Part shown: one piece after another, positions 690 to 48,552 of the stretch
Position numbering within the stretch: position 1 is the first letter of the stretch
How the letters are laid out: every line of letters starts with the position of its first letter
From: Burkholderiales bacterium
GTDB taxonomy: Bacteria; Pseudomonadota; Gammaproteobacteria; Burkholderiales; Burkholderiaceae_C
Reading direction: 5' to 3'
Length of the DNA: 61,064 nt
NCBI GenBank assembly: GCA_017307865.1
Contig: JAFKGE010000039.1
Coordinates: 1 to 61,064, forward strand
Position numbers and translations under genes: made by a program
Notes under the pieces: model-generated
Told to the model about the DNA's origin: nothing
The model's database searches: none
The model's input: the letters and a program-made list of their open reading frames with translations, nothing else

Positions 690-1481
690 ATGATTTTCGA
701 AGACATCCTGTACGAAGAGCGTGATTCGACCGCTTACATCTCTATCAACCGGCCGCAGGTGATGAATGCATTTCGGGGTCGCACCATGGATGAGCTGCTC
801 CACGCCATCATGAAGGCTGGCTGGGACAAAAAAATTGCTTCCATCGTCCTCACAGGTACGGGTGACCGCGCATTTTGTACTGGCGGCGACCAGTCGGCGC
901 ACTCAGGTCAGTACGACGGACGCGGCACCGTCGGATTGCCGGTCGAAGAAGTGCACAGCGCGATCCGCGACGTGCCCAAGCCGGTGATCGCCCGCGTACA
1001 AGGCTACGCGATCGGGGGCGGCAACGTGCTGGCCACCCTGTGCGACATGACCATCGCATCCGAAAAAGCCGTGTTCGGTCAGGTCGGCCCGAAGGTTGGC
1101 TCGGTCGACCCCGGTTGGGGAACAGCGTATCTGGCACATGTCGTCGGCGAGAAGAAGGCGCGCGAAATCTGGTATCTGTGCCGACGCTACACAGCACAGG
1201 AAGCGTTGGCGATGGGTCTGTGCAACACCGTCGTACCGCACGACCAGCTCGATGCCGAAGTCGCACGCTGGTGCAAGGAGATCGTTGACAAGAGCCCGAC
1301 CGCACTGGCCATCGCCAAACGCTCATTCAACGCTTCCACCGAGCACATTCGGGGCATCGGCAGTCTCGGCCTCCAGGCGCTGAGCCTGTACTATGACACT
1401 GCGGAGTCCAAGGAAGGCGTCCGCGCCTTCCTGGAGAAACGCCTGCCAGACTTCCGGCAATGGACTGGTGACAGCAAATGA
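690..1481 (+). CDS. badI: 2-ketocyclohexanecarboxyl-CoA hydrolase (BadI), alicyclic ring opening
   Basis: 263 aa, crotonase fold of the MenB/BadI branch. Visible features are NRPQVMNAFRG near the N-terminus, the oxyanion-hole segment DRAFCTGGDQS (about 57-67), YAIGGGNVLATLCD, and FGQVGPKVGSVDPGWGTAY followed by KKAREIWYLC, all typical of this branch. BadI cleaves 2-ketocyclohexanecarboxyl-CoA hydrolytically to pimeloyl-CoA. MenB (naphthoate synthase) is the closest alternative. The badH-like gene directly upstream, the lack of any menaquinone gene and the pimC/pimD-like genes at 29.4-31.8 kb favour BadI. The ATG at 690 begins the conserved MIFEDILYE. Confidence 0.85.
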   Translation: MIFEDILYEERDSTAYISINRPQVMNAFRGRTMDELLHAIMKAGWDKKIASIVLTGTGDRAFCTGGDQSAHSGQYDGRGTVGLPVEEVHSAIRDVPKPVIARVQGYAIGGGNVLATLCDMTIASEKAVFGQVGPKVGSVDPGWGTAYLAHVVGEKKAREIWYLCRRYTAQEALAMGLCNTVVPHDQLDAEVARWCKEIVDKSPTALAIAKRSFNASTEHIRGIGSLGLQALSLYYDTAESKEGVRAFLEKRLPDFRQWTGDSK

Positions 1482-1572
1482 GCCAGAACAGACACCGCTA
1501 AGGTAGGCAGCGTGTAAGAGCGCGGGAACATGTCTGCTACGATCGGTCTGTTTAACCTAACTAACAACCGAA
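1482..1572 (+). promoter_or_regulatory. Upstream region of the TetR gene with TAAC repeats
   Basis: This 91-bp gap holds TAACCTAACTAAC at 1553-1565, three TAAC units just before the regulator start. A TAAC/GTTA dyad at 4730-4743 upstream of the transporter operon shares the CCTAACTA core. TetR proteins commonly bind near their own start, so this may be an autoregulatory site. No clear sigma70 promoter was picked out. Confidence 0.3.
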
Positions 1573-2205
1573 ATGACCATCAAGCCACGTTCTGATGCCA
1601 CCTCCATCAGCGCCGAAGCCATAGACACTCGCGAGCGCATCCTGCTCGAAGCCGCTCGACTGCTCCGGCACCATGGATATGCCGCTACCACCCTGCGAGA
1701 AATTGCCGACGCGGCCGGCGTCAAAGCCGGCAGCATCTATTACCACTTCGAATCAAAGGAGGAGATCCTCGGCGAAGTCTTGGACAAGGGTATCACAATC
1801 GTCGCCAATGCAGTTCGCGCCCGTATCGAGGCGCTGCCAGCGGACGCAAGCTGGCGTGACCGCATCGCGGCAGGCATCGAAGGCCACCTGTGGGGAATGC
1901 TCCACTATGGCGATTTCACGTCGGCCAACATTCGCGTCTATGGGCAAATACCTACCAGCGCAAAGAATCGCCACAAGATAGTCCGCCGGGCTTATGCGGA
2001 CTACTGGGACCGTCTGCTCGCGTCGGCACTGGCCAGCGGCGAGTTGCGTCAAGACACCGGCTTGGCCGTGATTCGACTTTTCGTGATCGGCGCGTTGAAC
2101 TGGACCGTCGAGTGGTACAACCCCCAGCGCGGTTCATTCCAGGACTTCGCACGCCAAATCACAGCCATCGTGTTCGATGGAATCCTCACGCATGACAAGG
2201 CATGA
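1573..2205 (+). CDS. TetR/AcrR family transcriptional regulator
   Basis: 210 aa. The N-terminal domain (about residues 18-65) has the classic TetR helix-turn-helix: TRERILLEAARLL, then TTLREIADAAGVKAGSIYYH and FESKEEIL. The remaining roughly 140 residues form the variable ligand-binding domain with no identifiable pocket. It sits between badI and a MaoC hydratase, so a local role as a repressor relieved by an acyl-CoA intermediate is likely. The ATG at 1573 follows a short leader with TAAC repeats. The ligand cannot be read from sequence. Confidence 0.9.
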   Translation: MTIKPRSDATSISAEAIDTRERILLEAARLLRHHGYAATTLREIADAAGVKAGSIYYHFESKEEILGEVLDKGITIVANAVRARIEALPADASWRDRIAAGIEGHLWGMLHYGDFTSANIRVYGQIPTSAKNRHKIVRRAYADYWDRLLASALASGELRQDTGLAVIRLFVIGALNWTVEWYNPQRGSFQDFARQITAIVFDGILTHDKA

Positions 2206-2236
2206 CATGACAAAACATCTCTGGGAGGCATTATCG

Positions 2237-2259: not shown

Positions 2260-2373
2260 ACATCTGACCCTGACAGCAACCGTCAGCGTGCCGCCCGCGG
2301 TGGTGCCTCGTGGCTTGTTGCTCCGTTGCGTCAAGGAACTCTCGGTCCGTGCCGCCAGCAACAGGGGTGGGGC

Positions 2374-2883
2374 ATGACGGTAAAGGAAGGCTGGCGCGGC
2401 CGGTTCTATGAAGACTTCGAAGTGGGCGACGAGTATCGACACGCTCTCGGGCGCACCCTCACCCAGCAGGACAACATCTGGTTCACGCTGCTGACGCAAA
2501 ACACGGCACCTCTGCACTTCGATGCCCACTACGCGGCCCAGACGGAGTTCGGTCACCCCCTCGTCAACTCCTGTCTCACGCTGGCCCTCGTGACCGGCCA
2601 AACAGTGAGCGATGTCTCGCAGAACGTCATGGCCAACCTCGGGTGGGATGAAGTCCGTCTGCCTCATCCGGTGTTCGAAGGTGACACGATCTACTCGCGC
2701 TCCACAGTGCTTGACAAGCGGGAGTCGCGGTCACGCACCAACGTCGGCGTGGTGACAGTGCGTACCGAGGGCTACAACCAGGACGGCATCATTGTCTGCA
2801 CGTTCAAGCGCACGGTATTGGTTTACAAGCGCGACGGCGCACCGCGCACCGCGCCGCCACTGCCGGTCGGCAGCGGCCCCTGA
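2374..2883 (+). CDS. MaoC-like (R)-specific enoyl-CoA hydratase
   Basis: 169 aa, single hotdog domain of the MaoC family. The segment NTAPLHFDAHYAAQTEFGHP corresponds to the family D-x4-H hydratase region, here with Asn for the usual Asp, followed by LVNSCLTLALVTG. The C-terminal half has the typical VFEGDTIYSRSTVLDKRESRSR. Such proteins hydrate 2-enoyl-CoA to (R)-3-hydroxyacyl-CoA. I chose the ATG at 2374, preceded by AGGGGTGGGG, over a TTG at 2326 because family similarity starts there. Related proteins include mesaconyl-CoA hydratase-like enzymes, so the substrate is open. Confidence 0.8.
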   Translation: MTVKEGWRGRFYEDFEVGDEYRHALGRTLTQQDNIWFTLLTQNTAPLHFDAHYAAQTEFGHPLVNSCLTLALVTGQTVSDVSQNVMANLGWDEVRLPHPVFEGDTIYSRSTVLDKRESRSRTNVGVVTVRTEGYNQDGIIVCTFKRTVLVYKRDGAPRTAPPLPVGSGP

Positions 2884-2942: not shown

Positions 2943-4628
2943 ATGACGCCATCCTCCCTGCTTGAGCAATACGGCCCCCGTGAAACGATGGAATACGACG
3001 TGGTCGTGGTCGGCGGCGGCCCAGGCGGGCTGGCTACCGCCATCCGGCTGAAACAACTCGCCGCCGAAAAGGGCACGGAGCTCTCGGTGGTGGTACTCGA
3101 AAAAGGCTCTGAGCCCGGCGCCCACATTTTGAGCGGCGCGCTCATGGACCCGCGCGCGATCACCGAACTGTTTCCCAACTGGAAAGCGCTCGGCGCGCCG
3201 CTGAATCAACCCGTCACCGGCGACGAGATGCTGCTCCTGCGTCAGACCGGCAAAATCAGCACACCGCAATTCCTGATTCCGAAATGTCTGCACAACGAAG
3301 GCAATTTCGTCATCAGCCTGGGCAACATCGTGCGCTGGCTGGGTGAACAGGCCGAAGCCCTGGGCGTCGAGATATTCCCCGGCTTCCCGGCCGCTGAAGT
3401 GCTCTACAACGACGACGGGGCGGTCAAGGGTGTGGCCACCGGCAACCTCGGCGTCGGCAAGGATGGCCAGCCCACCGACCACTTCCAGCTCGGCATGGAA
3501 CTGCATGCCAAGTACACAATCTTTGCCGAAGGCTCCCGCGGCCACCTGGGCAAGCAGTTGATCGCCCAGTACAAGCTCGATGCCGGCAAAGCCCCCCAGA
3601 CCTACGCCCTCGGCATCAAGGAGCTGTGGGAGATTGACCCAGCCAAAGCCAAACCCGGCCATGTCGTGCACTCCCTCGGCTGGCCGATGGACAGCCAGAC
3701 CTATGGCGGTGGCTTTTTGTACCACTTGGAAGGCAACAAGGTCACGCTCGGCTTCATCACCGGGCTGGAGTACAGCAATCCGTGGTTGAGTCCGTTTGAG
3801 GAAATGCAGCGCTGGAAGACCCATCCCGCGATTCGCCACTACCTCGAAGGCGGCAAGCGCATCGGCTACGGCGCGCGCGCCATCACCTGCGGCGGCTTGA
3901 TGAGCCTGCCCAAAACCGTGTTCCCCGGCGGTGCATTGGTGGGCTGCGAAGCGGGCTTTCTCAACTTTGCGCGCATCAAGGGCAGCCACGCCGCCATGAA
4001 AACCGGCATGCTGGCGGCGGAAGCGGCGTATGCTGCGGTGACGGGTGGCCGCCAACACGATGAACTCACTGCCTACCCCGAAGCTTTTGAGAAGAGCTGG
4101 CTGTTTGAAGAACTGGATGCTTCGCGCAACACCAAGCAGTGGATGAAGAAAGGCCTGTACCTGTCATCCATCATGAACGGCATCGAGCTGTGGTTGCTGC
4201 CCAAACTCGGTTTCAAAGCGCCACCCTGGACTGTCCACAATCGCGTGCCCGACCACGCCAAGCTCAAGCCCGCCTCGGAGTCCCGGCAGATTGCTTACCC
4301 CAAGCCCGACAACAAGATCACCTTTGACCGCTTGAGTTCGGTGTTCGTGTCCAACACCAACCATGAAGAGCAACAGCCGACGCACCTGACGCTGAAAGAT
4401 GCCAGCTTACCAGTCAACTTCAACCTGGCCACCTATGCCGGGCCCGAATCGCGCTACTGCCCGGCTGGGGTCTATGAGTTCGTCAAGAACCCCGACAACA
4501 GCGACCGACTGCAGATCAATGCGCAGAACTGCGTGCATTGCAAGACCTGCGACATCAAGGACCCGACGCAAAACATCGTCTGGGTCACGCCAGAAGGCGG
4601 CGGCGGGCCGAATTACAGCGGCATGTAG
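2943..4628 (+). CDS. Electron-transfer flavoprotein-ubiquinone oxidoreductase
   Basis: 561 aa, full length for ETF-QO. The N-terminal FAD dinucleotide fold shows VVVVGGGPGGLATAIRLKQL (about 19-38), followed by GAHILSGALMDPRA. The C-terminal 4Fe-4S domain has Cys at about 506 (YCPAGVYEF) and 530, 533 and 536 (CVHCKTCDIKDP). The enzyme is membrane-associated and passes electrons from reduced ETF to ubiquinone. The six acyl-CoA dehydrogenases in this window would need it, but no etfA/etfB genes are seen, so ETF must be encoded elsewhere. A methionine at residue 16 is an alternative start. Confidence 0.95.
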   Translation: MTPSSLLEQYGPRETMEYDVVVVGGGPGGLATAIRLKQLAAEKGTELSVVVLEKGSEPGAHILSGALMDPRAITELFPNWKALGAPLNQPVTGDEMLLLRQTGKISTPQFLIPKCLHNEGNFVISLGNIVRWLGEQAEALGVEIFPGFPAAEVLYNDDGAVKGVATGNLGVGKDGQPTDHFQLGMELHAKYTIFAEGSRGHLGKQLIAQYKLDAGKAPQTYALGIKELWEIDPAKAKPGHVVHSLGWPMDSQTYGGGFLYHLEGNKVTLGFITGLEYSNPWLSPFEEMQRWKTHPAIRHYLEGGKRIGYGARAITCGGLMSLPKTVFPGGALVGCEAGFLNFARIKGSHAAMKTGMLAAEAAYAAVTGGRQHDELTAYPEAFEKSWLFEELDASRNTKQWMKKGLYLSSIMNGIELWLLPKLGFKAPPWTVHNRVPDHAKLKPASESRQIAYPKPDNKITFDRLSSVFVSNTNHEEQQPTHLTLKDASLPVNFNLATYAGPESRYCPAGVYEFVKNPDNSDRLQINAQNCVHCKTCDIKDPTQNIVWVTPEGGGGPNYSGM

Positions 4629-4956: not shown

Positions 4957-5763
4957 ATGGAGCAAACTGTCATGCTGAATCTCACGAATGTTCAGATCGT
5001 TTACGACAACACCATCGAAGCGGTAAGAGAAGCGTCGTTGTCGGTCAGCAAGGGAAGCATCGTCGCGCTGTTGGGTTCCAACGGGGCAGGCAAATCGACC
5101 ACGCTCAAAGGCATTTGCGGCGTCCTTTACCCGGAAGATGGCGAAATCAAGGGCGGCCAGATCATCTTCGAAGGTCGTCCACTTGCCGGGTTGCCGCCGG
5201 ACGAGATTGTGCGCACGGGTGTGGTGATGGTACCCGAGGGGCGCCGCCTTTTCGACCAGTTGACGGTTGAAGAGAATCTCGTGATGGGTGGCTACACGCG
5301 AAGCCGGGCCGACGCCAAACGCCGGATCGACATGGTGTACAGCCTGTTCCCGCGACTGGTGAACAAACGCACCACGGTGTCGGGCTATCTTTCGGGCGGC
5401 GAGCAGCAGATGGTAGCCATCGGTCGCGCCCTTATGTCGGCCCCGAAGCTACTGATGCTCGACGAGCCGACGCTCGGCCTTGCACCGCAAATCACCGAAG
5501 AGATATTCGAGATCGTCACCCGCCTCTGCCGTCAAGACGGCATGGGCATTCTCCTGGTGGAGCAGAACGCGCAGATGGCACTGGCCATCGCCGACTACGG
5601 TTACATCATGGAAAATGGCCGCGTAGTGCTTGATGGCCCGGCGGACAAGATGCTGCGCAATGAAGACGTGCGCGAGTTCTACCTTGGCTTCGGCGAGGGC
5701 GGATCGCGCAAGAACATGCGCGACGTAAAACACTACAAGCGGCGCAAGCGCTGGCTATCCTGA
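4957..5763 (+). CDS. livF: ABC transporter ATP-binding protein, LivF type (cassette 1)
   Basis: 268 aa. Walker A is GSNGAGKSTT, the ABC signature is LSGGEQQM and Walker B is LLMLDEPTLGL, followed by the switch-His region. The tail KHYKRRKRWLS is a basic extension shared with the LivF of the second cassette (46558-47394). LivF pairs with LivG at the cytoplasmic face of a LivHM permease. It is the first gene of a tightly packed set livF-livG-ligase-livH-livM-binding protein. ATG 4972 (MLNLTNVQ) is an alternative start. The ligand is probably an aromatic or alicyclic carboxylate rather than an amino acid, judging from the neighbours. Confidence 0.9.
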   Translation: MEQTVMLNLTNVQIVYDNTIEAVREASLSVSKGSIVALLGSNGAGKSTTLKGICGVLYPEDGEIKGGQIIFEGRPLAGLPPDEIVRTGVVMVPEGRRLFDQLTVEENLVMGGYTRSRADAKRRIDMVYSLFPRLVNKRTTVSGYLSGGEQQMVAIGRALMSAPKLLMLDEPTLGLAPQITEEIFEIVTRLCRQDGMGILLVEQNAQMALAIADYGYIMENGRVVLDGPADKMLRNEDVREFYLGFGEGGSRKNMRDVKHYKRRKRWLS

Positions 5764-5771
5764 GAAGCATC

Positions 5772-6554
5772 ATGAACGACGATTTGCTGAGGGTCGAAAC
5801 CCTGTCCAAGCGATTCGGCGGCGTCGAGGCCGTGGCCGGCGTCAGCTTTCACGTCAAGCGCGGCGAGATCTATTCTCTGATCGGCCCCAACGGGGCCGGC
5901 AAGACAACAACGTTCAACATGATCAGCAGTGTGGTCAAGCCCAGCAGCGGCACGGTGCATTTTGACGGTCGCGACATCACCGGCATACCCACGCATCGTC
6001 TGGCCGCCATCGGCATCGGTCGAACTTTCCAGAACCTGGCAGTATTCAAGCATGCCAGCGTGGTGGACAACCTCCTGGTAGGTCGCCATTGCCACATGGC
6101 GACGAATGTGCTGGATGCCTCTTGGTTCTTCGGGCGGGCGCGACGCGAAGAAATGGAGCACCGCCGCAAGGTCGAGGAGATCATCGATTTTCTGGAGATC
6201 GAGGAAGTCCGCAACATGCCGGTGGGCACCTTGTCCTACGGGCTTCAAAAGCGGGTCGAACTTGGGCGCGCACTGGCCACGCAACCCAAGCTGCTGCTGC
6301 TGGACGAAATGGTGTCGGGAATGAACAGCGAAGAAACCGAAGACATTGCCCGCTTCGTGCTCGACATCCGCGACGAATTAGGGATCTCGGTGCTTATGGT
6401 TGAGCATGACATGGGCATCGTGATGGACATCTCCGACCGCATCTGTGTGCTCAACTTCGGGCGCAAGATCGGCGAAGGCACGCCCGCCGAGATATCGGCA
6501 AACCCGGCGGTGATCGACGCCTACCTGGGCAGCAAAACAAAGGAGGCTGCGTGA
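5772..6554 (+). CDS. livG: ABC transporter ATP-binding protein, LivG type (cassette 1)
   Basis: 260 aa. Walker A is GPNGAGKTTTFN. The signature is the LivG variant LSYGLQKRVELG, and Walker B is LLLLDEMVSGMN, with Met where Pro is usual. The C-terminus has the LivG-specific MVEHDMGIVMDISDRI segment. It starts 8 bp after livF and its stop overlaps the next start (GTGA), so translation is probably coupled to the acyl-CoA synthetase. It would power uptake together with LivF. Confidence 0.92.
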   Translation: MNDDLLRVETLSKRFGGVEAVAGVSFHVKRGEIYSLIGPNGAGKTTTFNMISSVVKPSSGTVHFDGRDITGIPTHRLAAIGIGRTFQNLAVFKHASVVDNLLVGRHCHMATNVLDASWFFGRARREEMEHRRKVEEIIDFLEIEEVRNMPVGTLSYGLQKRVELGRALATQPKLLLLDEMVSGMNSEETEDIARFVLDIRDELGISVLMVEHDMGIVMDISDRICVLNFGRKIGEGTPAEISANPAVIDAYLGSKTKEAA

Positions 6555-8419
6555 TCGACTCCCTGGACACCAAGCTGCGCGACGGTAACGCCACCCTTCC
6601 CAAGCTGTTGCAGCATTGGGCGCAAAGCACCCCGGATTCGCTGGCCTTTCGGGAAAAGGACTACGGCATCTGGAACCGGATGACCTGGCAGCACTATTTT
6701 GAAACGGCGCGCCGCTTCGCCCTGGGACTGAAGTCCCTGGGCTTCAACAAGGGCGACCGGCTGGCCATCGCCAGCGAGGACAGCCCGGAGTGGATGTTCG
6801 CTGACCTAGCCACGCAGGCCATCGGCGGCGTGGTGGTGGGGATCTACCCCACCAATCCGTGGCCGGAACTACAGTACATCGTGCATCACTCGAACAGCAA
6901 GTTCGTGGTCTGCGGCGACCAGGAGCAGGTGGACAAGGTGCTCGATGCGATGGACAAGCACGCGACCGGTTTGCCCGATGTGGTAAAGATCATCTGCGCC
7001 GACATGAAAGGCATGCGCGGCTACAAGCTCGACAAGCTGATGTCGTTCGAGGATGTACTCGAACTCGGCGACCAGTACTTTGCATCGTCGCCCGAGAACG
7101 CGAGAGCATTTGACCGTGCCATTGAGCAAACCCAGCCCGACGACACATGCATGCTCGTCTACACCTCGGGAACCACCGGGCCCCCAAAGGGCGCAATGCT
7201 CTCACACCGCAACCTGATCGTCACGGTGGACAAGCTCAAGACCCATTTCAGGCTGGACCGTCACAACTACGAGGTGGTGTGCTACCTGCCACTGTGCCAC
7301 GTGGCGGAACGTGCCTTCTCGACCGTTTTGCACCTGCTCACTGGCGGCGTGGTCAACTACGCCGAATCGATCGACACCGTCGCCGTCAATTTGCGCGAAA
7401 TTGCGCCAAGGGTGTTTCTGGGCGTGCCGCGCATCTGGGAGAAGTTGCAACAAGGCATTCTGATTCGCATGCAGGATGCCTCGCGCTTTCAACGCTGGGC
7501 ATTCTCGCGCTGCATGGCGGCCGGACAGCGGCTGTTCGAGCGCGTCGAGGCACGAGAAGGACGACGCTCACTCACCGACCGGCTGCAGTTCTTCCTGCTC
7601 TGGCTGGTGATGTTTCGCAACCTGCAAAAGTTCATCGGTCTGGACCGCATGCGCTGCGGGTTCTGCGGCGGCGCCAGCGTCTCGCCCGAAGTGCTGAAGT
7701 TTTTCCGCGTCCTCGGTCTTCCGGTGTTCCAGGTATACGGCATGACCGAGTCCGGGGGGGTGGTCTTCTTCCAGCATGAAAAAGCGGCCAGGCTGGGCGC
7801 CACCGGACTGCCGATCGACGGCCTGAACTGGAAGATCGCCGACGACGGCGAGCTGATCATCAAGCACCCCGCCGTGTTCAAGGGGTATCTCCACGACGAT
7901 GGCGCCACCGCCAAGACCGTGGTCGATGGCTGGCTGCACACCGGCGACATCGTGGCACTCGCCGACAACGGCGAACTGATGATCGCCGACCGCAAGAAGG
8001 CCATTATCATCACCAGCGGGGGAAAGAACATCGCCCCGTCCGAAATCGAGAACGCACTCAAGGACAGCCTGTACGTGCGCGAGGCCATCATTCTGGGCGA
8101 CGGTCGCCATTACCTGTCCGCGCTCATCCAGATCGACTACGAAACGGTGGGCAAGTGGGCACAGGAGCGCAAACTGGCCTACACCACCTACAAGAGCCTG
8201 GCCTTGCTGCCCGAGGTGCGCGAGCTGATCGACGAAGACGTCAAGCGCGTCAACAAACTGTTTGCGCGAGTCGAAAATATCCGCAAGTTCCTGATCCTGG
8301 AAAAGGAACTCGACCACGATGACGGTGAACTCACCGCCACCCAGAAAGTGCGCCGCAACGTGATCGAAAAAACTTTTTCTCGCGAGATCGCGATCATTTA
8401 CGGCGGGGGAAATGCCTGA
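6551..8419 (+). CDS. Long-chain-type acyl-CoA synthetase embedded in the Liv transporter operon (cassette 1)
   Basis: 622 aa AMP-forming ligase. The ATP/AMP motif is YTSGTTGPPKGAMLSH (about residues 203-218), followed by VYGMTESGG, WLHTGDIV and DRKKAIIITSGGKNIAPSEI. It uses a GTG start overlapping the livG stop and ends with its TGA overlapping the livH ATG. Lying between ATPase and permease genes, it probably converts the imported acid to its CoA thioester on entry. The size and domain order match FadD-like synthetases. The substrate is not deducible; a cyclic or branched carboxylate fits the window. Confidence 0.88.
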   Translation: MIDSLDTKLRDGNATLPKLLQHWAQSTPDSLAFREKDYGIWNRMTWQHYFETARRFALGLKSLGFNKGDRLAIASEDSPEWMFADLATQAIGGVVVGIYPTNPWPELQYIVHHSNSKFVVCGDQEQVDKVLDAMDKHATGLPDVVKIICADMKGMRGYKLDKLMSFEDVLELGDQYFASSPENARAFDRAIEQTQPDDTCMLVYTSGTTGPPKGAMLSHRNLIVTVDKLKTHFRLDRHNYEVVCYLPLCHVAERAFSTVLHLLTGGVVNYAESIDTVAVNLREIAPRVFLGVPRIWEKLQQGILIRMQDASRFQRWAFSRCMAAGQRLFERVEAREGRRSLTDRLQFFLLWLVMFRNLQKFIGLDRMRCGFCGGASVSPEVLKFFRVLGLPVFQVYGMTESGGVVFFQHEKAARLGATGLPIDGLNWKIADDGELIIKHPAVFKGYLHDDGATAKTVVDGWLHTGDIVALADNGELMIADRKKAIIITSGGKNIAPSEIENALKDSLYVREAIILGDGRHYLSALIQIDYETVGKWAQERKLAYTTYKSLALLPEVRELIDEDVKRVNKLFARVENIRKFLILEKELDHDDGELTATQKVRRNVIEKTFSREIAIIYGGGNA

Positions 8420-10337: not shown

Positions 10338-10389
10338 GCACCTCGGCGGGGAACGACCGCCGCTGCTGATGCTCAAAAGGAGACCTGAG

Positions 10390-39320: not shown

Positions 39321-39380
39321 GCGTTCCATGCTCACATCGCCCTCTCCTTCCTCCATCCCACCCCTGTCCCGGAGCCCATC

Positions 39381-40541: not shown

Positions 40542-40554
40542 TCATTCCTGCTCC

Positions 40555-41352
40555 ATGGACAAACACACCTCTGCGGGAGCCGGCAAGGCCACCGTGCTGC
40601 AAGCACAAAACGTCACCCTGCGCTTCGGCGGTGTCACCGCGCTGTCCGAAGTGTCGGTGGATGTGCGCGACGACGAACTGCTCGCCATCATCGGCCCCAA
40701 CGGCGCCGGCAAGAGTTCGCTCATGAACGTGCTCAGCGGTTTTTACCTGCCGCAGGATGGCACGGTGCATTACCGCGGCAAAAGCATCAAGGGCCGTGCG
40801 GTGCACCAGATTGCGCGTGACGGCATCGTGCGCACCTTCCAGGGCACGCACCTGTTTTCGAACATGAGCGTGATCGACAACATCCTCGTGGGCCGCTACA
40901 GCCTCATGCGCTCGGGCCTGCTGCAGTCCTTCCTCTACTTTCCGTGGACGCAGCGCGAAGAGTCGCAGCACCGCGAGGTGGTCGAGGACATCATCGACTT
41001 CCTTGAAATCGAAAGCATCCGCCACCAGCCCGTGGGCACGCTGGGCTACGGGCTGCGCAAGCGCGTCGACCTGGGCCGCGCACTCGCGATGGAGCCCCAG
41101 GTCTTGCTGATGGACGAACCCATGGCCGGCATGAACACTGAAGAAAAAGAAGACCTTGCGCGCTTCATCATCGACGTGCGCGAAGCCAAGCACATCCCCG
41201 TGGTGCTCGTGGAGCACGACATGGGCGTGGTCATGGACTTGGCCGACCGCGTGGCTGTGCTCGACTTCGGCCGCAAGATCGCCGACGGCACGCCCGCGCA
41301 GGTGCAGGCCGACCTGGCCGTGGTCAAAGCCTATCTGGGAGCCGCGGCATGA
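40555..41352 (+). CDS. livG: ABC transporter ATP-binding protein, LivG type (cassette 2)
   Basis: 265 aa from ATG 40555. Walker A is GPNGAGKSSLMN, the signature LGYGLRKRVDLG, and Walker B VLLMDEPMAGMN, with LVEHDMGVVMDLADRV near the end. It is a diverged homologue of the LivG at 5772-6554. It overlaps the ligase start by ATGA, as its counterpart does in cassette 1. Confidence 0.92.
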   Translation: MDKHTSAGAGKATVLQAQNVTLRFGGVTALSEVSVDVRDDELLAIIGPNGAGKSSLMNVLSGFYLPQDGTVHYRGKSIKGRAVHQIARDGIVRTFQGTHLFSNMSVIDNILVGRYSLMRSGLLQSFLYFPWTQREESQHREVVEDIIDFLEIESIRHQPVGTLGYGLRKRVDLGRALAMEPQVLLMDEPMAGMNTEEKEDLARFIIDVREAKHIPVVLVEHDMGVVMDLADRVAVLDFGRKIADGTPAQVQADLAVVKAYLGAAA

Positions 41353-43337
41353 GTGTTCGCCCCTCCACCCCCGCGGCCGTGCACGCCATTCCCACGCTGC
41401 CGCAAACCCTGTTAGCACACGCACAAAACCACCCGCAGCGCCTGGCTCAGCGTGTCAAACGCAAGGGCATCTGGCGCACCTACACCTGGGGCGACGTGTT
41501 CGAGCGCGTGCGCAACATCTCGCTGGGCGCGGCGGCGCAGGGCCTGCTGCGTGGCGAGACCGTCGTCATCATCGGTGAAAACGAACCCGAACACTTCTGG
41601 GCACTGTTCGCCGCGCAGTCGCTCGGCGCCAAGACCGTCTCTGTGTATCCCGACGCCACGCCCGACGAGCTCCACTACCTCAGCGAAGACTCCGAGGCGC
41701 GCTTCATCTTCGCGCAAGACCAGGAGCAGGTGGACAAGGCGCTCGCGGTGCTCGACCGTCTGCCCGACATCCGCGGCATCGCGTATTGGGACGACGCGGG
41801 CATGTGGTCGTACCGGCACCCTCTGCTGCACTCGCTGGACGCCTTGAGCGCCGAAGGTGCGCGCCAGCATGAGCGCCAGCCCCAGCGCTTTGCGCGCGAA
41901 ATCGCCGACGGCCAGGCCGACGACCTGGCGCTGCTGACCTACACCTCGGGCACCACGAGCAAGCCCAAGGGCGTGATGATCAGCCACCGCTGGCTGAGAG
42001 ACAACGCCCTGCGCATGAAGAGCGCGCTGCCGCTGCAAGAGGGCATGGAATACCTCTCGTACACGCCGCTGGCCTGGGTGACCGAGCAGTTGCTGGGCGT
42101 GACGCTGGGCCTGATCACGCCCCTGGTGGTGAACTTCCCCGAGGCGCCCGACCAGGTCTTGCCCAACCTGCGCGAGCTCGCACCGCACATCGTGCTCTTC
42201 GGCCCGCGCCAGTGGGAAAACATCGCCGCGACCATCGAAGCACGCATGCTGGACGCAGGCTGGCTCGCACGCCGCATCTATCGCTGGGGCTTGCGCGTGG
42301 GCCACGACGTGCACGTGGCGCGGCTCGAAGGGCGCGCGGCGCCGCTTACCTCGCGCCTGCTGCTGCCGCTGGCCGAAGCGCTGGTGCTGCACCCTCTGCG
42401 CGACCAGTTCGGCTTCATCCACAGCAAGATAGCCGTCTCGGGCGGCACGGCCATGGCGCCCGATGTGTTCCGCCTGTTTCACGCCATGGGCGTGGGCCTG
42501 CGCAACATCTATGGCTGCTCGGAATTCGGCCTGATCGCCGGCCACCGTGGCCAAAGCTACGACCTCGAGACCGTGGGCCCGCTGCTCGACGTCGATCCCA
42601 CCTTCGGCGAACCGCTGCAGGCGCGCATCGCCGACAACGGCGAGCTGCAGCTGCGCGGCGGCACGGGGTTTCTGGGCTACTGGCACAAGCCCGACAAGAC
42701 GGCCGCCATCCTGCGCGACGGCTGGTACCTCAGCGGCGACGCGGTGCGCCAGACCGAGCGCGGCGAGCTCGTCTACCTCGACCGCGTCGAACACCTCGTC
42801 AAACTCGCGAGCGGCCACCTGTACCCGCCGCAGTTCATCGAGACGCGGTTGCGCTTTTCGCCCTACATCAAGGACGTGATGGTGCTCGGCGACGCTACCC
42901 GCCCCTGGGTCGGCGCGCTGATCAACATCGACATGGCCGTCACGAGCCGCTGGGCCGAGGAGCGGCGCATCGCGTTCTCGACCTTCACCGACCTGTCGCA
43001 ACGCCCCGAGGTGCGCGAACTGGTGCGCGAGGAGATCCGCCGCATCAACCAGTTCCTGCCCGAGGGCTCGCGCGTGGTGCGCTTTGCCAACTTCCCCAAG
43101 GAGCTCGACCCCGACGAAGGCGAACTCACGCGCACGCGCAAGCTGCGCCGTGAGTTCCTCGAGGTGCGCTACCGCGCGCTCATCGAGGGCCTGTATGCGG
43201 GTGCTGCTGACATTCCCTGCGAGATCGCCGTGACCTACCAGGACGGCCGCCAGGGCGTGCTGCGCGCCACCGTCGTCGCCACCGATATCGCCCCCCCAAC
43301 CGCACAGGAGCGCAACACCCGGAGTGCCCAAGCATGA
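41349..43337 (+). CDS. Long-chain-type acyl-CoA synthetase embedded in the Liv operon (cassette 2)
   Basis: 662 aa. The P-loop is LTYTSGTTSKPKGVMISH, with later IYGCSEFGLIAG, WYLSGDAVRQ and RVEHLVKLASGHLYPPQFIE. It has a C-terminal extension of about 40 residues (after ALIEGLYAG) compared with the cassette-1 enzyme. Its position between LivG and LivH and the overlaps at both ends (ATGA) repeat the cassette-1 layout, so import and CoA activation are again linked. The substrate is unknown. Confidence 0.88.
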   Translation: MSVRPSTPAAVHAIPTLPQTLLAHAQNHPQRLAQRVKRKGIWRTYTWGDVFERVRNISLGAAAQGLLRGETVVIIGENEPEHFWALFAAQSLGAKTVSVYPDATPDELHYLSEDSEARFIFAQDQEQVDKALAVLDRLPDIRGIAYWDDAGMWSYRHPLLHSLDALSAEGARQHERQPQRFAREIADGQADDLALLTYTSGTTSKPKGVMISHRWLRDNALRMKSALPLQEGMEYLSYTPLAWVTEQLLGVTLGLITPLVVNFPEAPDQVLPNLRELAPHIVLFGPRQWENIAATIEARMLDAGWLARRIYRWGLRVGHDVHVARLEGRAAPLTSRLLLPLAEALVLHPLRDQFGFIHSKIAVSGGTAMAPDVFRLFHAMGVGLRNIYGCSEFGLIAGHRGQSYDLETVGPLLDVDPTFGEPLQARIADNGELQLRGGTGFLGYWHKPDKTAAILRDGWYLSGDAVRQTERGELVYLDRVEHLVKLASGHLYPPQFIETRLRFSPYIKDVMVLGDATRPWVGALINIDMAVTSRWAEERRIAFSTFTDLSQRPEVRELVREEIRRINQFLPEGSRVVRFANFPKELDPDEGELTRTRKLRREFLEVRYRALIEGLYAGAADIPCEIAVTYQDGRQGVLRATVVATDIAPPTAQERNTRSAQA

Positions 43338-44221
43338 TGACCGAATTCTTCAACTACGCTCTCAATGGCGCCCTGCTCGGAATGCTGTACGCGCTCGTCG
43401 CCATGGGCTTCGTCGTGATCTACCGCGCGAGCAAGGTCTTCAACATGGCCGTGGGCGAAATGATCGTGCTCGGCGCGTTTTTGCTCTGGTGGGCGATCCA
43501 GTCGCGCGGCCTGCATCCGGCGCTGGGCATAGGCGTTGCGCTGCTGATCGCGGTCGTGGTCGGGTTGCTCATCGAGCGCTTGCTGTTCAGACGCCTGATC
43601 GGCGAGTCGGTGTTCTCCATGATCATGGTCACGATCGGGCTCTTGATCCTCATGCGCGGCCTGGTGCTCGTGATCTGGGGCCCGCAAGAGCGCCAGTTCC
43701 CGGCGATCTTTCCGCTCGCGCCGCTGATCGTGTTCGACATGATCGTGCCGCGCGCGCTCGCCGCGGGCGGCGTCATCGCGGTGCTTGCTGCGCTGGGGTT
43801 GCACTGGTTTTTCAACCACAGCCGCAACGGCCTGGCCATGTCCGCGGTGGCCGAAGACCACCAGATTGCCCTCTCCATGGGCATCAGCGTGCGCCGCTCG
43901 ATCGCCTTTGCCTGGGCGCTCGGTGGCGTACTCTCGGTCGTCACCGCCATGGTCTATCTGAGCGGCAAGTCGCTCACCTTCCTGTCCTCGGAAATCGGCT
44001 TTGCCGCGCTGCCCGTGGCCTTGCTCGCGGGCCTCGAGTCGATCGCCGGCCTGCTGCTCGCCGGTCTCATCGTCGGTATCGTGCAGGGGCTCACTGCAGC
44101 CTACATTGACCCACTGATCGGCGGCAACGCCGCTGCGGTGGTGCCCTACATCTTCATGCTGGTGGTGCTGGTGGTGCGTCCTACCGGCATGTTCGGCTGG
44201 AAACGCATCGAAAGAGTCTAA
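43334..44221 (+). CDS. livH: ABC transporter permease, LivH type (cassette 2)
   Basis: 295 aa, about eight membrane segments. LivH motifs: GMLYALVAMGFVVIYRASKV, FNMAVGEMIVLGAF, and near the C-terminus AGLESIAGLLLAGLIVGIVQ. It overlaps the synthetase stop by ATGA and is followed by livM after 4 bp. Confidence 0.92.
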   Translation: MMTEFFNYALNGALLGMLYALVAMGFVVIYRASKVFNMAVGEMIVLGAFLLWWAIQSRGLHPALGIGVALLIAVVVGLLIERLLFRRLIGESVFSMIMVTIGLLILMRGLVLVIWGPQERQFPAIFPLAPLIVFDMIVPRALAAGGVIAVLAALGLHWFFNHSRNGLAMSAVAEDHQIALSMGISVRRSIAFAWALGGVLSVVTAMVYLSGKSLTFLSSEIGFAALPVALLAGLESIAGLLLAGLIVGIVQGLTAAYIDPLIGGNAAAVVPYIFMLVVLVVRPTGMFGWKRIERV

Positions 44222-44225
44222 AAAC

Positions 44226-45278
44226 ATGGATCCCTCTGGCATCTTTCCCACGAGCTACGCGCAAGACCGCGCGCTGATACGCACGCGCCCGCAATGGGTG
44301 ATTTTCTGGCTGTTCGTCGCTTTGCTCTTTTTGTACCCCTGGCTGGCATCGGCACGCCTGGTGGCCGTGGCCAACCTCATGCTGGTGACCTCCATCGTCG
44401 TCATTGGACTGCAGATCACCACGGGCTACGCCGGGCAGATCAACCTTGGCCAAGCGGCCTTCATGGGCGTGGGCGCCTACGCTGCGAGCGTGATTGCCAC
44501 CAAGACGGTGCTGCCCTTTTGGATCGCGGTTCCCGTGGGCGGGCTGGTAGCAGGGTTCGCAGGCTGGCTGTTCGGCCTCACGGCGGCGCGCATCAAGGGC
44601 TTTTACCTGGCTTTGACCACCATTGCGGCGCAGTTCATCTTCCACTTTTTGGTGCTGAACCTGCCCTCGGCCTGGCTCGGCGGCGTGACCGGCTTTAGCC
44701 TGGAGCCCGCGCGCCTGGGCAGCATAGTGTTCGACACCGACCGCTCGCTCTACTACCTGTTCCTCGTCGTCACTATGGTCATGGTGTTCGGTGCCTTCGG
44801 CATCCTGCGCAGCCGCCACGGCCGCGCCTTCGTGGCCGTGCGCGACGACGACGTCGCTGCGGGCATGATGGGCATCGACGTGGCTGGTGCCAAGTCGCGC
44901 GCCTTCGTGCTCGGCGCGTTCTATGCAGGCATAGGCGGCGCTCTGTGGGCCTACCAGGTGCGCTACGTCTCGGTCGATCAGTTCACGCTGTTCCACTCGA
45001 TTTGGTTCATCGCGATGATGATCGTGGGCGGCCTGAGCTCCATCGTCGGCGCTGTGCTAGGTACGGTGCTGATCCGCGGCGTGCAGGAGACCATCACCAG
45101 CCTCGGACCCGATCTGGTCGAGCGCATTCCCAGCCTCAGCAGCGACCTGATCTTTGCCAGCATGAACGTGTTCCTCGGCCTCATCATCACGCTGTTCCTG
45201 CTGCTCGAGCCCAAGGGTCTGATGCACCGCTGGAACATCCTCAAACTTAACTACCGGCTCTGGCCGTTCCATCACTGA
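44226..45278 (+). CDS. livM: ABC transporter permease, LivM type (cassette 2)
   Basis: 350 aa membrane protein with LQITTGYAGQINLGQAAFMG, SRHGRAFVAVRDDDVAAGMM and IVGGLSSIVGAVLGTVLIRG, all LivM hallmarks. The C-terminal WNILKLNYRLWPFHH resembles the cassette-1 LivM tail. It pairs with the LivH at 43334-44221. Confidence 0.92.
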   Translation: MDPSGIFPTSYAQDRALIRTRPQWVIFWLFVALLFLYPWLASARLVAVANLMLVTSIVVIGLQITTGYAGQINLGQAAFMGVGAYAASVIATKTVLPFWIAVPVGGLVAGFAGWLFGLTAARIKGFYLALTTIAAQFIFHFLVLNLPSAWLGGVTGFSLEPARLGSIVFDTDRSLYYLFLVVTMVMVFGAFGILRSRHGRAFVAVRDDDVAAGMMGIDVAGAKSRAFVLGAFYAGIGGALWAYQVRYVSVDQFTLFHSIWFIAMMIVGGLSSIVGAVLGTVLIRGVQETITSLGPDLVERIPSLSSDLIFASMNVFLGLIITLFLLLEPKGLMHRWNILKLNYRLWPFHH

Positions 45279-45325
45279 CTTGTTGAAATCCACGCTTTCC
45301 CCACTGCAACTACCAGGAGACATTT

Positions 45326-46558
45326 ATGCAACGCCACACATTCCTCAAAGTCTCGGCGGCACTGGCCGCAGGCTTGGCTCTGAACGCCCCGGCGCTGGCC
45401 CAGACCAAGACCATCAACATCGCAGGCTTGGCCGATTTCGCCGGTCCTTATGCCAACGTCATGCCCGAAATGGCGGGCGGACGGGCCGCAGTGTTCGAGT
45501 GGTGGAACAAAGAAGTTGGCAGCAAGCTTAATGTGCAGATCGCCGTCAAAACATTCGACACCCGCTACGACGTCGCGCAGACAGCGAGCCTGTGGCCTGG
45601 CATCAAGGCCGAGCTCAAGCCCGTGGTCGTGCTCGGCCTGGGCGGCCCCGACGCTGCGGCGCTGCAGCAACGCCTGCCCGAAGACAAAATTCCCATGCTG
45701 TTGGCCACTGCCACCTACGGCTTCGGCTGGAAACCCAACCAGTGGGCTTTGAACCTGCGCCCCACCTACGCGCACGAGTCGGGCGGCTTCATCGAGTGGT
45801 ATCGCAGCACCAAACTGGAAGGCAAGCGCCCAGTCAGGGTCGGCATCATCACGTCGGAAGCCACGCCTGCCTACGCCGACATGGCCAAGGGTCTGCAAAG
45901 CTTTACAAAAGCGCACCCTGACAAAGCCACCTTCGTCGAGGCCATCTGGACCGAGGTGCAGCCCACCGACGTCACGCTGCCCGTGCGTCGTCTGGCCAAC
46001 GCCGGAACCGACCTAATCGTGATCCAGACCAACACAGCGCAAGCCGTGGCCACCAAACGTGCGCTACAGGCGCTGGGCAAGAACATCCCCATCGTGCTTT
46101 CTCTGCACAATGGTCTCGCTGCCTCGGCCAAAGCACTGGGCAGCCCAAACGGCTTTGTCGGCGACTACGAAGTTGGCGCCATCGCCGACGCGAGCGAGAG
46201 TGACACGCCAGCGCGCAACTTCTACCGCATGCTGCAAGAAAAATACGGTCTCAAGTCGGGCTGGAACGCTATGACCATCATGGGCATGGCACAAAGCATC
46301 GCCGCCGCGCGCGCCATCGAGCACACGATCAAGAGCAAAGGTTTCGACCAAGTGACCGGCCAGGCAGTGCATGACACCCTCATGAAATCCCAGTTCACCA
46401 GCGCCGATCTCATGGGCATCCTGCCGGGCATGGATTTCAGCCCCGAAAACCCCTTCCCCACAGGCAGCTCCAAGCTCAACATTGTGACCATGGAAAAAGA
46501 CGGCAAGGCCGTCCGTGCCGCTGGCGACGTGTCAATCCCGACGGTGCCCAAGTGGTAA
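45326..46558 (+). CDS. Periplasmic substrate-binding protein of Liv-type transporter (cassette 2)
   Basis: 410 aa with CAGGAGACATTT before the ATG. A Sec signal peptide is clear (MQRHTFLKVSAALAAGLALN, cleavage near ALAQ-TK). The mature part shows AGLADFAGPYANVMPEMAGG and GLGGPDAAALQQRL, peripla_BP_6 type. It is only distantly like the cassette-1 binding protein, so the ligand probably differs. Its TAA overlaps the livF ATG (TAATG). Confidence 0.9.
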   Translation: MQRHTFLKVSAALAAGLALNAPALAQTKTINIAGLADFAGPYANVMPEMAGGRAAVFEWWNKEVGSKLNVQIAVKTFDTRYDVAQTASLWPGIKAELKPVVVLGLGGPDAAALQQRLPEDKIPMLLATATYGFGWKPNQWALNLRPTYAHESGGFIEWYRSTKLEGKRPVRVGIITSEATPAYADMAKGLQSFTKAHPDKATFVEAIWTEVQPTDVTLPVRRLANAGTDLIVIQTNTAQAVATKRALQALGKNIPIVLSLHNGLAASAKALGSPNGFVGDYEVGAIADASESDTPARNFYRMLQEKYGLKSGWNAMTIMGMAQSIAAARAIEHTIKSKGFDQVTGQAVHDTLMKSQFTSADLMGILPGMDFSPENPFPTGSSKLNIVTMEKDGKAVRAAGDVSIPTVPKW

Positions 46559-47394
46559 TGTCGCAGGTTCAAACAGGGGCCGGGGCCGCTGCCCCGGTCG
46601 CACTGCTCACGCTCTCCAACGTCGAGGTACTTTATTCAGAGGTCATCCTCGCGCTCAAGGGCGTGTCGCTGCAGATTCCTGCGGGCGGCTGCGTCGCGCT
46701 GCTGGGCGCCAACGGTGCGGGCAAGAGCACCTCGCTCAAAGCCATCTCGGGAGTGATCGACTCGGAAGACGGACGCGTTTCGGGTGGTTCCGTCACCTTC
46801 GAAGGCCGGCCCATTCACGGGCTGGATCCGGCGACCGTGGTGCGCAGCGGGCTCGTGCACGTGATGGAAGGCCGGCGCGTGCTGCAGCACATGACGGTGG
46901 AGCAGAACCTCATCATCGGCGGGCACATGTTCCCGTCTGCAGGCGCGATGCGCCAGGCGCTGGAACGTGTCTATGAAGCCATCCCGCGCCTGGCCGACCT
47001 GCGCAAGCGCACCTCGGGCTATCTTTCGGGTGGCGAGCAGCAAATGCTCGTGATCGGCCGCGCCATCATGGCCCAGCCCAGGCTCATGCTGATCGACGAG
47101 CCCTCGCTGGGCCTTGCGCCACGCATGACCGAAGAGGTCTTTGCCGTGCTGCACACACTGCGCACGCAAGGGCTCGCACTGCTGATCGTCGAGCAGAACA
47201 CGCGCGTGGCGCTCGAAATCGCCGACTATGGCTACGTCATGGAAAGCGGGCGCATCGTGCTCGAAGGCCAGGCGCAGGAGCTCCGAGACAATGAGGATGT
47301 GCGCGAGTTTTACCTCGGCCTGGACCGCGAAGGCGCACGCAAGAGCTTCCGCGACATCAAACACTACAAGCGCCGCAAACGCTGGCTCGGCTGA
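46558..47394 (+). CDS. livF: ABC transporter ATP-binding protein, LivF type (cassette 2)
   Basis: 278 aa from ATG 46558. Walker A is GANGAGKSTSLK, the signature YLSGGEQQML and Walker B LMLIDEPSLGL. The tail KHYKRRKRWLG is the same basic extension as in cassette-1 LivF. Here livF is last in the cassette rather than first, so the gene order is permuted between the two systems. Confidence 0.92.
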   Translation: MSQVQTGAGAAAPVALLTLSNVEVLYSEVILALKGVSLQIPAGGCVALLGANGAGKSTSLKAISGVIDSEDGRVSGGSVTFEGRPIHGLDPATVVRSGLVHVMEGRRVLQHMTVEQNLIIGGHMFPSAGAMRQALERVYEAIPRLADLRKRTSGYLSGGEQQMLVIGRAIMAQPRLMLIDEPSLGLAPRMTEEVFAVLHTLRTQGLALLIVEQNTRVALEIADYGYVMESGRIVLEGQAQELRDNEDVREFYLGLDREGARKSFRDIKHYKRRKRWLG

Positions 47395-47439
47395 GACTGA
47401 AATGCTGCCGCAGCGCCATCGAACCCAAGGAGAATCTTC

Positions 47440-48552
47440 ATGAGTGGCCCTCTCAAAGGCTTGAAAGTCATCGAATTCGGCGGCATCGGCCCAGGCCCTT
47501 TTTGCGCCATGATGCTGTCGGACATGGGCGCAGACATAATTCGCCTCGACCGCAAGGCCGACAAAGGCAAGGACCGCGGCCAGGGCACCTTTCTGGCAAG
47601 CGGCCGCCGCGGCGTCCTGCACCGCGGCCGGCGCTCAGTTGCGGTCGACCTCAAAGACCCGCAGGACAAAGAAAAAGTGTTGCAGCTGATCGATGGCGCA
47701 GACGCCATCATCGAAGGCTATCGCCCCGGCGTGATGGAGCGCCTGGGCTTTGGGCCCAAAGTGCTGCTCGCGCGCAACCCGCGTCTGGTGTATGGGCGCA
47801 TGACTGGCTGGGGCCAGGACGGGCCACTCGCACAGACTGCGGGACATGACATCAACTACATCGCCTTGTCGGGAGCGCTCAGCATGATCGGGCGCGCCGA
47901 AGGCGGACCGGTGGCACCGCCGGCCATGGTTGGCGACCTCGGCGGTGGCGGCATGATGCTCGCGTTCGGCATCGTTTGCGCCTTGCTCGAAGCGCGCACG
48001 TCTGGCCAAGGCCAGGTGGTCGATGCCGCGATCACCGACGGAGCAGCCCTGCTCACCTCCATCGTCTGCGACCTCAAAGCCATAGGACTTTGGAAAAACG
48101 AACGGCAAGCCAACCTTCTGGACGGTGGCGCACACTTCTACGACACCTACGAGTGTGCAGACGGAAAGTGGATTTCAATTGCCGCGCTGGAGCCACAGTT
48201 CTATACGTTATTCTTGGACAAGCTCGGCATCAGCGCCCCCGAATTCGAAAAGCAACGCGATCCAGCAGCTTGGCCGGCACTCAAACGCCAGGTCACCGAC
48301 ATCTTCCGCAGCCAACCGAGCGCGCACTGGTGTGCCTTGCTAGAGGGTACCGACGTCTGCTTTGCACCGGTGCTGACGCTGGAAGAGGCAGCCCGCCATC
48401 CGCACAACGCGGCTCGCAAGACGTTCTTTGAGCGAGACGGCGTCCTGCAGCCTTCGCCGGCCCCGCGATTTAGCCGAACGGCTCCGGATCGGCCGGCACC
48501 CGCGCCGTTTATCGGGGAGCACGACGACACAGAGGTCACAGGCGCGACCTGA
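47440..48552 (+). CDS. Alpha-methylacyl-CoA racemase-like CaiB/BaiF family protein
   Basis: 370 aa. It shows LKVIEFGGIGPGPFCAMMLS at the N-terminus, RLVYGRMTGWGQDGPLA, and AGHDINYIALSGALSMIG, the catalytic-His segment of AMACR-type racemases; formyl/succinyl-CoA transferases differ there. It interconverts (R)- and (S)-2-methylacyl-CoA so that stereospecific dehydrogenases can act. This points to a methyl-branched intermediate. It has an AAGGAG site and follows livF by 45 bp, the last catabolic gene before the mobile region. Confidence 0.88.
   Translation: MSGPLKGLKVIEFGGIGPGPFCAMMLSDMGADIIRLDRKADKGKDRGQGTFLASGRRGVLHRGRRSVAVDLKDPQDKEKVLQLIDGADAIIEGYRPGVMERLGFGPKVLLARNPRLVYGRMTGWGQDGPLAQTAGHDINYIALSGALSMIGRAEGGPVAPPAMVGDLGGGGMMLAFGIVCALLEARTSGQGQVVDAAITDGAALLTSIVCDLKAIGLWKNERQANLLDGGAHFYDTYECADGKWISIAALEPQFYTLFLDKLGISAPEFEKQRDPAAWPALKRQVTDIFRSQPSAHWCALLEGTDVCFAPVLTLEEAARHPHNAARKTFFERDGVLQPSPAPRFSRTAPDRPAPAPFIGEHDDTEVTGAT

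Follow-up and report, generated by a model that had tools for sequence, protein, structure and literature searches.

Beta-oxidation of cyclohexaneacetate-type and branched naphthenic acids stalls. Published accounts cover naphthenic acids (PMC4547698, PMC5906575, PMC13188881), the degradation of plain cyclohexanecarboxylate (PMC9795900) and the opening of substituted rings: in Castellaniella defragrans, MrcF, MrcD and MrcE were proposed to open perillyl-coenzyme A (perillyl-CoA) as BadK, BadH and BadI would (Petasch et al. 2014, PMC4109377), and a 2025 report on Syntrophobacteraceae LiM6 added 3-isopropenylglutaryl-CoA and a cleavage at the tertiary alcohol (PMC12583861). When naphthalene is degraded anaerobically, hydration of 2-carboxycyclohexylideneacetyl-CoA is followed by ring cleavage to 3-oxoazeloyl-CoA through the AtuA-like ThnQ/ThnS, the lyase result being cited in these sources as unpublished (PMC11659651, PMC12016498); for the geraniol route, there has been speculation that AtuA acts as an acetate lyase (PMC9973270). 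Here we describe a 61,064-nucleotide stretch of a Burkholderiales bacterium genome (GCA_017307865.1, contig JAFKGE010000039.1), hereafter the window, which corresponds to bases 1-61064 of contig C53 in a genome of 3.92 Mb in 91 contigs. It holds half of a catabolic island that probably lets bacteria use ring-shaped acids with a side chain, and in which a gene for the ring-opening hydrolase BadI stands together with genes for a biotin-dependent carboxylase, whose carboxyltransferase (CT) we call CT3. Of the open reading frames of the window, fifty were compared with NCBIfam models and twenty with Pfam models.

With the bad-ali system of R. palustris and Aromatoleum sp. CIB, the island shares BadI, a BadH-like short-chain dehydrogenase/reductase (SDR), an AliB-like dehydrogenase on the neighboring contig C32 and a lower pathway of the pimeloyl-CoA type. 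BadI is the sole match in the genome above the TIGR03210 cut-off. The island differs from bad-ali in its interrupted badH-like gene, in its additional carboxylases, aldolases, racemase and Liv transporters, and in having neither an AliA nor an AliB above cut-off anywhere in the genome (the closest AliB-like protein, encoded beyond the window on C32, reaches 538 of 575.35 bits; the best AliA match reaches 292.1 of 792.3 bits). The two parts of the badH-like gene, one at the end of C32 and one at the start of the window, match adjoining stretches of a single gene in a Rhodoferax metagenome-assembled genome (G001), in Polaromonas AET17H-212 (G004) and in Polaromonas JS666. Inverted ends of an insertion-sequence (IS)-like element flank the interruption, and the 8-bp duplication CAAACGAC, directly after the IS-like end at window positions 149-156, recurs identically on the C32 side. 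Because inverted repeats and 8 common bases are found at both ends, the IS-like element, which we take to be IS21-like, is most likely located between contig C32 and the window; the ends and the duplication lie within the badH-like gene, at window 134-156 and C32:84071-84200. The best intact BadH-like protein of the genome is on C89 (349 bits, cut-off 431.2). At C32:7851-8612 (locus L092) there is another BadI/MenB-like gene, more distant (257 bits) and clustered with family III CoA-transferase-like, PimCD-like and ligase genes, and similar matches of 253-264 bits were seen in G001, G002, G004, G005, G006, G012, G956 and G1066.

The sequence-only reading of this DNA had predicted a carboxylase of the methylcrotonyl-CoA carboxylase (MCC) or geranyl-CoA carboxylase (GCC) type, and its genes are indeed present: biotin carboxylase (BC), biotin carboxyl carrier protein (BCCP) and CT lie in a row (Table 1), with position 13755, the one named in that reading, falling inside the CT gene. 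Against PDB chains, CT3 scores 553 and 534 bits with MCC, 441 with GCC and at most 271.5 with propionyl-CoA carboxylase (PCC; e.g. 1vrg, 3ib9). In the region of the N-terminal helix, which MCC and GCC share and PCC lacks, the picture is mixed: the alignments of CT3 start at residues 6-10 with 9tps, 8j4z and 5ikl, only at residue 50 with 3u9r and at residues 12-56 with the PCC chains. According to Jurado et al. (PMC4673880), Phe191 with a preceding three-residue insertion marks MCC, in which this Phe blocks geranyl-CoA, and Gly without the insertion marks GCC. At the Phe191 position CT3 carries Gly and lacks the three-residue insertion (IE---GGKVF), like GCC. It belongs to a clade of 15 rows (support 100/100, long branches) with no GCC inside, and is 46% identical to the GCC of its own genome. 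Within this clade, 8/15 members have Gly without the insertion and 7/15 have Ala with it, in an alignment that omits the orthologues of G003, G005 and G006 as well as the genome's own carboxylases at C66 and C14 and the second one at C71. Phe occupies the pocket in two further carboxyltransferases of the island, CT1 and CT2, both here and in JS666, and the aligned chain from C71 bears the MCC signature. By these comparisons CT3 resembles the gamma-carboxylating MCC/GCC lineage, with a GCC-like open pocket and a clade of its own.

We reject the reading of CT3 as an ordinary leucine MCC, a role for which an MCC-like chain with the MCC signature already exists at C71. We likewise reject GCC proper, for reasons of clade and identity and not of the pocket; the fused BC-BCCP alpha chain of GCC is also missing, BC and BCCP being separate chains here and the C32 alpha chains being of fused length (664-671 aa). 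With a separate GCC and the MCC-like chain at C71, the genome does not depend on CT3 for geranyl- or methylcrotonyl-CoA. Two other genomes (G956 and G1066, loci L129 and L130) carry a tandem carboxyltransferase pair, one member with a Gly pocket without insertion and the other with an Ala pocket with insertion.

To examine how CT3 is distributed, we scored up to three first-look candidates per genome in three overlapping genome sets. CT3 at E<=1e-200 is rare, occurring in 2/399 genomes of the family, 2/399 of the order and 7/369 of the class (own genome counted each time). A BadI-model match of at least 431 bits was present in 7 of the 8 genomes found by CT3 alone (own excluded), with 3 over the cut-off; the one miss, G838, is 81% complete. 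AtuA was present in 6/8, and lay within 11 kb of CT3 in 3/8, in the order hydratase-AtuA-BC-BCCP-CT in G1012. In G547, CT3 and BadI are 2 kb apart. Conversely, among 15 genomes chosen for BadI, CT3 is present at 84% or above in 7, in 6 of these 7 on the same contig as BadI at a distance of 10-15 kb, and in G002 on a different contig. In G012 and G409, about 6 kb separate CT3 from a carbonic anhydrase, an enzyme that is also encoded in the window.

The window is the right half of an island of about 92 kb, which reaches at least 43 kb leftward onto C32. The C32 half adds further carboxylases, namely the MCC-like chains CT1 and CT2 (579 and 618 bits to 3u9r), which flank an HMG-CoA-lyase-like protein; the AliB-like dehydrogenase belongs to the same gene run. 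The lyase-like protein, encoded at C32:57279, scores 254 bits against a subfamily cut-off of 246, reaches only 187 bits with the 2ftp enzyme, and has altered residues (GPRE, IQV), at positions we assume to be catalytic, in common with JS666, G001 and G004. Further left on C32, a GCC (beta chain, 716 bits to 5ikl and 529 to MCC) and AtuA (506 bits, at C32:34554) form a terpene cluster. Carboxyltransferase matches in the genome number ten.

Gene order in the island is conserved. The stretch made up of C32 40.8-84.2 kb and the first 48.5 kb or so of the window is collinear, with gaps, to contig C181 of G001 (locus L009), at protein identities of mostly 72-96%, two genes (the 27299 hydratase and the 28126 dehydrogenase) having no close counterpart there and the racemase at 47440 falling outside the compared stretch. 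Polaromonas AET17H-212, a cultured relative, shares the first half and JS666 plasmid 2 the core. The AET17H-212 island includes CT3 and badI, and its compared stretch gave no orthologue of the 18157 gene. G547, which was found via the carboxylase alone, has BadI, the carboxylase, the aldolase pair, the isovaleryl-type dehydrogenase, the acs-like ligase and the nitroreductase within 20 kb in a changed order. Collinearity in other Burkholderiales, combined with this re-clustering in a different order, indicates that the grouping is more than chance. To the right of the island lie the conjugation genes of an integrative element, of which the MobH/TraI relaxase and TIGR03755/03756 proteins exceed their cut-offs (368.2/200, 298.7/161.4, 583.5/270.45 and 434.2/188.35 bits), an arrangement of the ICEclc/PFGI-1 type. 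Searches of plasmid DNA gave partial matches only (68 and 56 records), with no single place covering 80% of the query.

The gene pair that had been read from the letters as a retro-aldolase is also present. The protein encoded at 18157 has SGATAATM where the nucleophilic Cys would sit and YDCF at position 296; YDCF is the motif given for TbSLP, Sal having YDCY, and the catalytic motif of such aldolases is YDCY/F or YDHF (PMC12329534). Like Sal/Ltp2 with their DUF35 partners, this predicted aldolase is a Cys-less thiolase-like protein with the YDCF motif and an adjacent OB-fold partner gene; it differs in scoring 180 bits to Ltp2 (6ok1) and in standing in a window where scans found no steroid genes. 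YDCF recurs at loci L100, L125, L016 and L137, and C32 encodes two more aldolase-type proteins, with YDSF and YDAF. The Cys is retained in the thiolases encoded at 33616 and 37292. For the racemase (47440) and the isovaleryl-type dehydrogenase (35056) the genes are there as expected, and the labels depend on motifs that we presume to be diagnostic: GHDINYIALSG for the former, GLDLER and IGAGTSEVRK for the latter.

We chart a model, to which we assign a probability of roughly 0.4, in which the locus is a mobile island for side-chained or branched alicyclic acids and the carboxylase is a rescue step; its substrates, the order of its steps and the action of CT3 on a cyclic substrate are what we infer. 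Alkylcyclohexyl-alkanoic, naphthenic-type or cyclic terpenoid acids would be converted to CoA esters by the FadD11-like and other ligases, and their chains shortened to the ring carboxylate, which dehydrogenation (by the AliB-like enzyme of C32), hydration, BadH-type oxidation and BadI would turn into pimeloyl-CoA, possibly branched. Beta-oxidation would halt where the beta-carbon belongs to the ring or bears a branch, as when cyclohexylacetyl-CoA has become cyclohexylideneacetyl-CoA. There the open-pocket carboxylase would put CO2 on the gamma-carbon, a hydratase would form the tertiary alcohol, and a lyase resembling AtuA or HMG-CoA lyase would then cleave it, in the ring case to 3-oxoazeloyl-CoA and onward to pimeloyl-CoA. 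The final steps would fall to the PimCD-like dehydrogenases, the MaoC/FAS1_DH hydratase, an SDR and the SCP2 thiolase, and the YDCF aldolase pair and the racemase may serve beta-hydroxy and alpha-methyl side chains.

The product of gamma-carboxylating cyclohexylideneacetyl-CoA would be exactly 2-carboxycyclohexylideneacetyl-CoA, which would tie the carboxylase with its open pocket to AtuA, BadI, the pimeloyl-type lower pathway and the carbonic anhydrase in one scheme. The ring-opening to 3-oxoazeloyl-CoA by an AtuA-like lyase would then be common to the island and the thn operon (ThnO, ThnP and the lyases ThnQ/S), with the difference that the carboxyl group in the thn pathway comes from the first ring and not from a biotin carboxylase. 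Likewise, the logic of gamma-carboxylation, hydration and lyase is that of atu/liu, from which the island carboxylase differs by its separate BC and BCCP chains, its own clade and its linkage to BadI. That CT3 itself carboxylates cyclohexylideneacetyl-CoA, or an analogue with alkyl groups, at the ring carbon, with an AtuA- or HMG-CoA-lyase-like enzyme opening or shortening the product, such that both even- and odd-chain cyclohexyl acids reach pimeloyl-CoA (the odd ones via BadI), is a tentative and rather doubtful part of the proposal.

Several observations weigh against the rescue model. The genomes found by CT3 come from only 6 genera, and the background for co-occurrence consists of 14 distant, unmatched control genomes (0 over the cut-off for BadI and AtuA). 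A CT3 orthologue is lacking in 8 of the 15 BadI genomes (best match at most 52%), and a Noviherbaspirillum (L016) has BadI and the aldolase pair and no CT3 orthologue in its genome; from 7/8 on one side and 8/15 on the other, CT3 tends to accompany BadI, and BadI does not predict CT3. Within the window AtuA is not beside CT3, and the gene next to BadI is not an intact badH in this assembly. The top PDB match of CT3 (9tps, 559 bits) is named a propionyl-CoA carboxylase, 9tps itself showing the MCC-type Phe and insertion, and an acyclic branched acid is a conceivable substrate for CT3. The JS666 island, finally, contains neither BadI nor CT3. Incomplete overlap of this kind, together with the habit of conjugative elements of gathering cassettes, would also be expected if plain cyclohexanecarboxylate genes and unrelated cassettes (leucine or isoprenoid carboxylases, aldolases) had merely come to share one mobile element with no joint pathway. 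We regard such an assembly as distinctly unlikely: order is kept over tens of kb in G001, many of the genes cluster again in G547 in another arrangement, and AliA and AliB both stay below cut-off in the genome.

The sequence-only reading had itself favored a perillate- or naphthenic-acid-like substrate, with a 4-substituted ring opening to a 3-branched pimeloyl-CoA whose branch requires carboxylation or retro-aldol removal. We reject the need for carboxylation: opening of a 4-substituted ring would give a 5-branched pimeloyl-CoA and, after one round of beta-oxidation, a 3-branched glutaryl-CoA, and since the latter already carries a free carboxyl group, this branch would need no carboxylase. 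The same intermediates define a pathway of the mrc/lrc kind for perillate or 4-isopropyl(en)ylcyclohexanecarboxylate, in which the HMG-CoA-lyase-like protein of C32 would cleave 3-hydroxy-3-alkylglutaryl-CoA and the carboxylases would serve other substrates. Compared by description and not by sequence, mrc and lrc share with the island the BadH/BadI-type opening of a substituted ring, and the tertiary-alcohol cleavage proposed for LiM6 is like that in our scheme (PMC12583861); equal logic is in print for both organisms, the divergent lyase-like protein is conserved in JS666, G001 and G004, and the window encodes an acetoacetyl-CoA-synthetase-like ligase, which the Castellaniella table also lists. 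However, no gamma-carboxylase was seen in the proposed mrc and lrc routes, and Castellaniella is described by its authors as having no atuC or atuF homologues (PMC4109377), whereas the island has a carboxylase in the BadI gene run and G547 again pairs the two, so that a pathway of this kind is possible and, in our judgment, unlikely. Perillate as the specific substrate is unproven: no feature singles it out, and the window gave no pointer to limonene activation, as by CtmAB or Lss, for which no genome-wide search was made. A pathway for the side chain and rings of a polycyclic substrate, of steroid, resin-acid or decalin type, appears very improbable. Steroid side-chain breakdown typically involves a Sal/Ltp2-like aldolase, OB-fold partners and SCP2 thiolases like those present here, and C32 has the second BadI/MenB-like gene, yet BadI and the PimCD-like enzymes indicate single six-membered rings and protein scans of the window revealed no ring-A/B steroid enzymes, the rest of the genome not having been searched for steroid genes.

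What survives of the initial proposal is that the gene set exceeds the needs of plain cyclohexanecarboxylate, as indicated by a carboxylase like those for 3-branched enoyl-CoAs, its enlarged pocket and the neighboring terpene cluster, and in part the branched alicyclic substrate class. The suggested novelty may hold for one aspect only. The main steps of a perillate route, ring opening of perillyl-CoA and branch cleavage, are proposed by Petasch et al. (PMC4109377) and for LiM6 (PMC12583861), so these are not new; the pairing of BadI with a gamma-carboxylase in one island is unusual, and we found no description of it among the matches listed from open-licence PMC literature. If the rescue model is true, a mobile island applies the gamma-carboxylation trick of leucine and geraniol breakdown to beta-blocked ring acids, which would provide a second route to open a saturated ring, as well as a marker and an assayable enzyme for the clean-up of naphthenic acids and terpenoids. 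The CT3 group would represent a third clade of gamma-carboxylases, in part with the same pocket change as GCC.

Table 1. Features of the window and of associated loci (window positions unless a contig or locus is given).
Feature	Position	Strand	Evidence or remark
Inverted end of IS-like element	134-148	.	27/35 end positions match inverted end at C32:84079
badH-like SDR gene, 3' part	149-640	+	BadH model positions 96-250
badH-like gene, 5' part	C32:83765-84078, contig end		BadH model positions 1-100
BadI, 2-ketocyclohexanecarboxyl-CoA hydrolase type	690-1481	+	TIGR03210 472.3 bits, cut-off 467.6
TetR-type regulator	1573-2205	+	Library scan; stays next to badI in relatives
MaoC-type hydratase	2326-2883	+	PF01575 82.3 bits
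Electron transfer flavoprotein:ubiquinone oxidoreductase	2943-4628	+	PF05187, PF21162
LivFGHM-type ABC transporter with substrate-binding protein; FadD11-like acyl-CoA ligase (6551-8419)	4957-11721	+	Library scan
BC subunit, separate chain, 497 aa	11736-13229	+	Library scan
BCCP, 167 aa	13226-13729	+	Library scan; ESMKLE motif
Carboxyltransferase CT3, MCC/GCC lineage	13743-15353	+	PDB comparison; pocket alignment
Two SDR dehydrogenases and 4HBT thioesterase	15350-17441	+	Library scans; conserved in JS666 plasmid 2
OB-fold/zinc-ribbon (ChsH2-type) partner	17741-18265	-	PF01796 71.1 bits, PF12172 41.4 bits
Cys-less thiolase-like protein, YDCF motif, predicted retro-aldolase	18157-19362	-	Motif comparison
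Acyl-CoA ligase, distantly AliA-like	19386-21050	-	267.6 bits, cut-off 792.3
Nitroreductase-family protein	21087-21830	-	PF00881; conserved near carboxylase in G547, G012, G409
Acetyl/acetoacetyl-CoA synthetase-like ligase	21691-23820	+	Library scan; start tentative, overlaps preceding gene
Acyl-CoA dehydrogenase	23848-25017	-	Library scan
MmgE/PrpD-family protein, within acyl-CoA gene run	25046-26641	-	PF03972 187.4 bits
Carbonic anhydrase	26463-27170	-	NF007756 276.2 bits, cut-off 251
Enoyl-CoA hydratase and acyl-CoA dehydrogenase	27299-29307	-	Library scan
PimD-like and PimC-like dehydrogenase pair, dicarboxylyl-CoA type	29429-31784	-	373.3 of 652.7 and 419.8 of 623.85 bits
SDR dehydrogenase and two hydratase subunits (MaoC, FAS1_DH type)	31816-33591	-	Library scans
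SCP2-type thiolase with Cys (NNNCSTG)	33616-34800	-	NF006102 695.9 bits, cut-off 436
Isovaleryl-type acyl-CoA dehydrogenase	35056-36234	+	Presumed motifs (see text); orthologue 81% near badI in G547
Enoyl-CoA hydratase, Cys-type thiolase (37292), SDR, acyl-CoA dehydrogenase	36324-40541	+	Library scan
Second LivFGHM-type transporter; FadD11-like ligase (41349-43337)	40528-47394	+	Library scans
Alpha-methylacyl-CoA racemase-type family III protein	47440-48552	+	PF02515; presumed motif (see text)
Conjugation genes of integrative element: MobH/TraI relaxase, TraG_N, TIGR03755, TIGR03756	52018-60267	-	Library scans
CYP153-type P450, 2Fe-2S ferredoxin-type and FAD-dependent oxidoreductase genes	L089 27539-30436		Beside JS666 island version

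The JS666 copy of the island adjoins a P450 gene (Table 1), whose product has as its best PDB matches a full-length cytochrome P450 (7ant, 965 bits) and CYP153A7 (610 bits). Among the JS666 papers listed, none could be linked to this island. A CYP153-like first step was considered for the present genome and rejected, its only two P450 matches being on C23 and C84 and none on C32 or C53. On C32, the strand assigned to the GC-based frame 66553-68610 (minus) is probably wrong, because JS666 has two dehydrogenases on the opposite strand at this place. Directly before AtuA, at C32:31571-33950 (L093), lie genes for an AAA (MoxR-like) ATPase and a VWA/CoxE-like protein.

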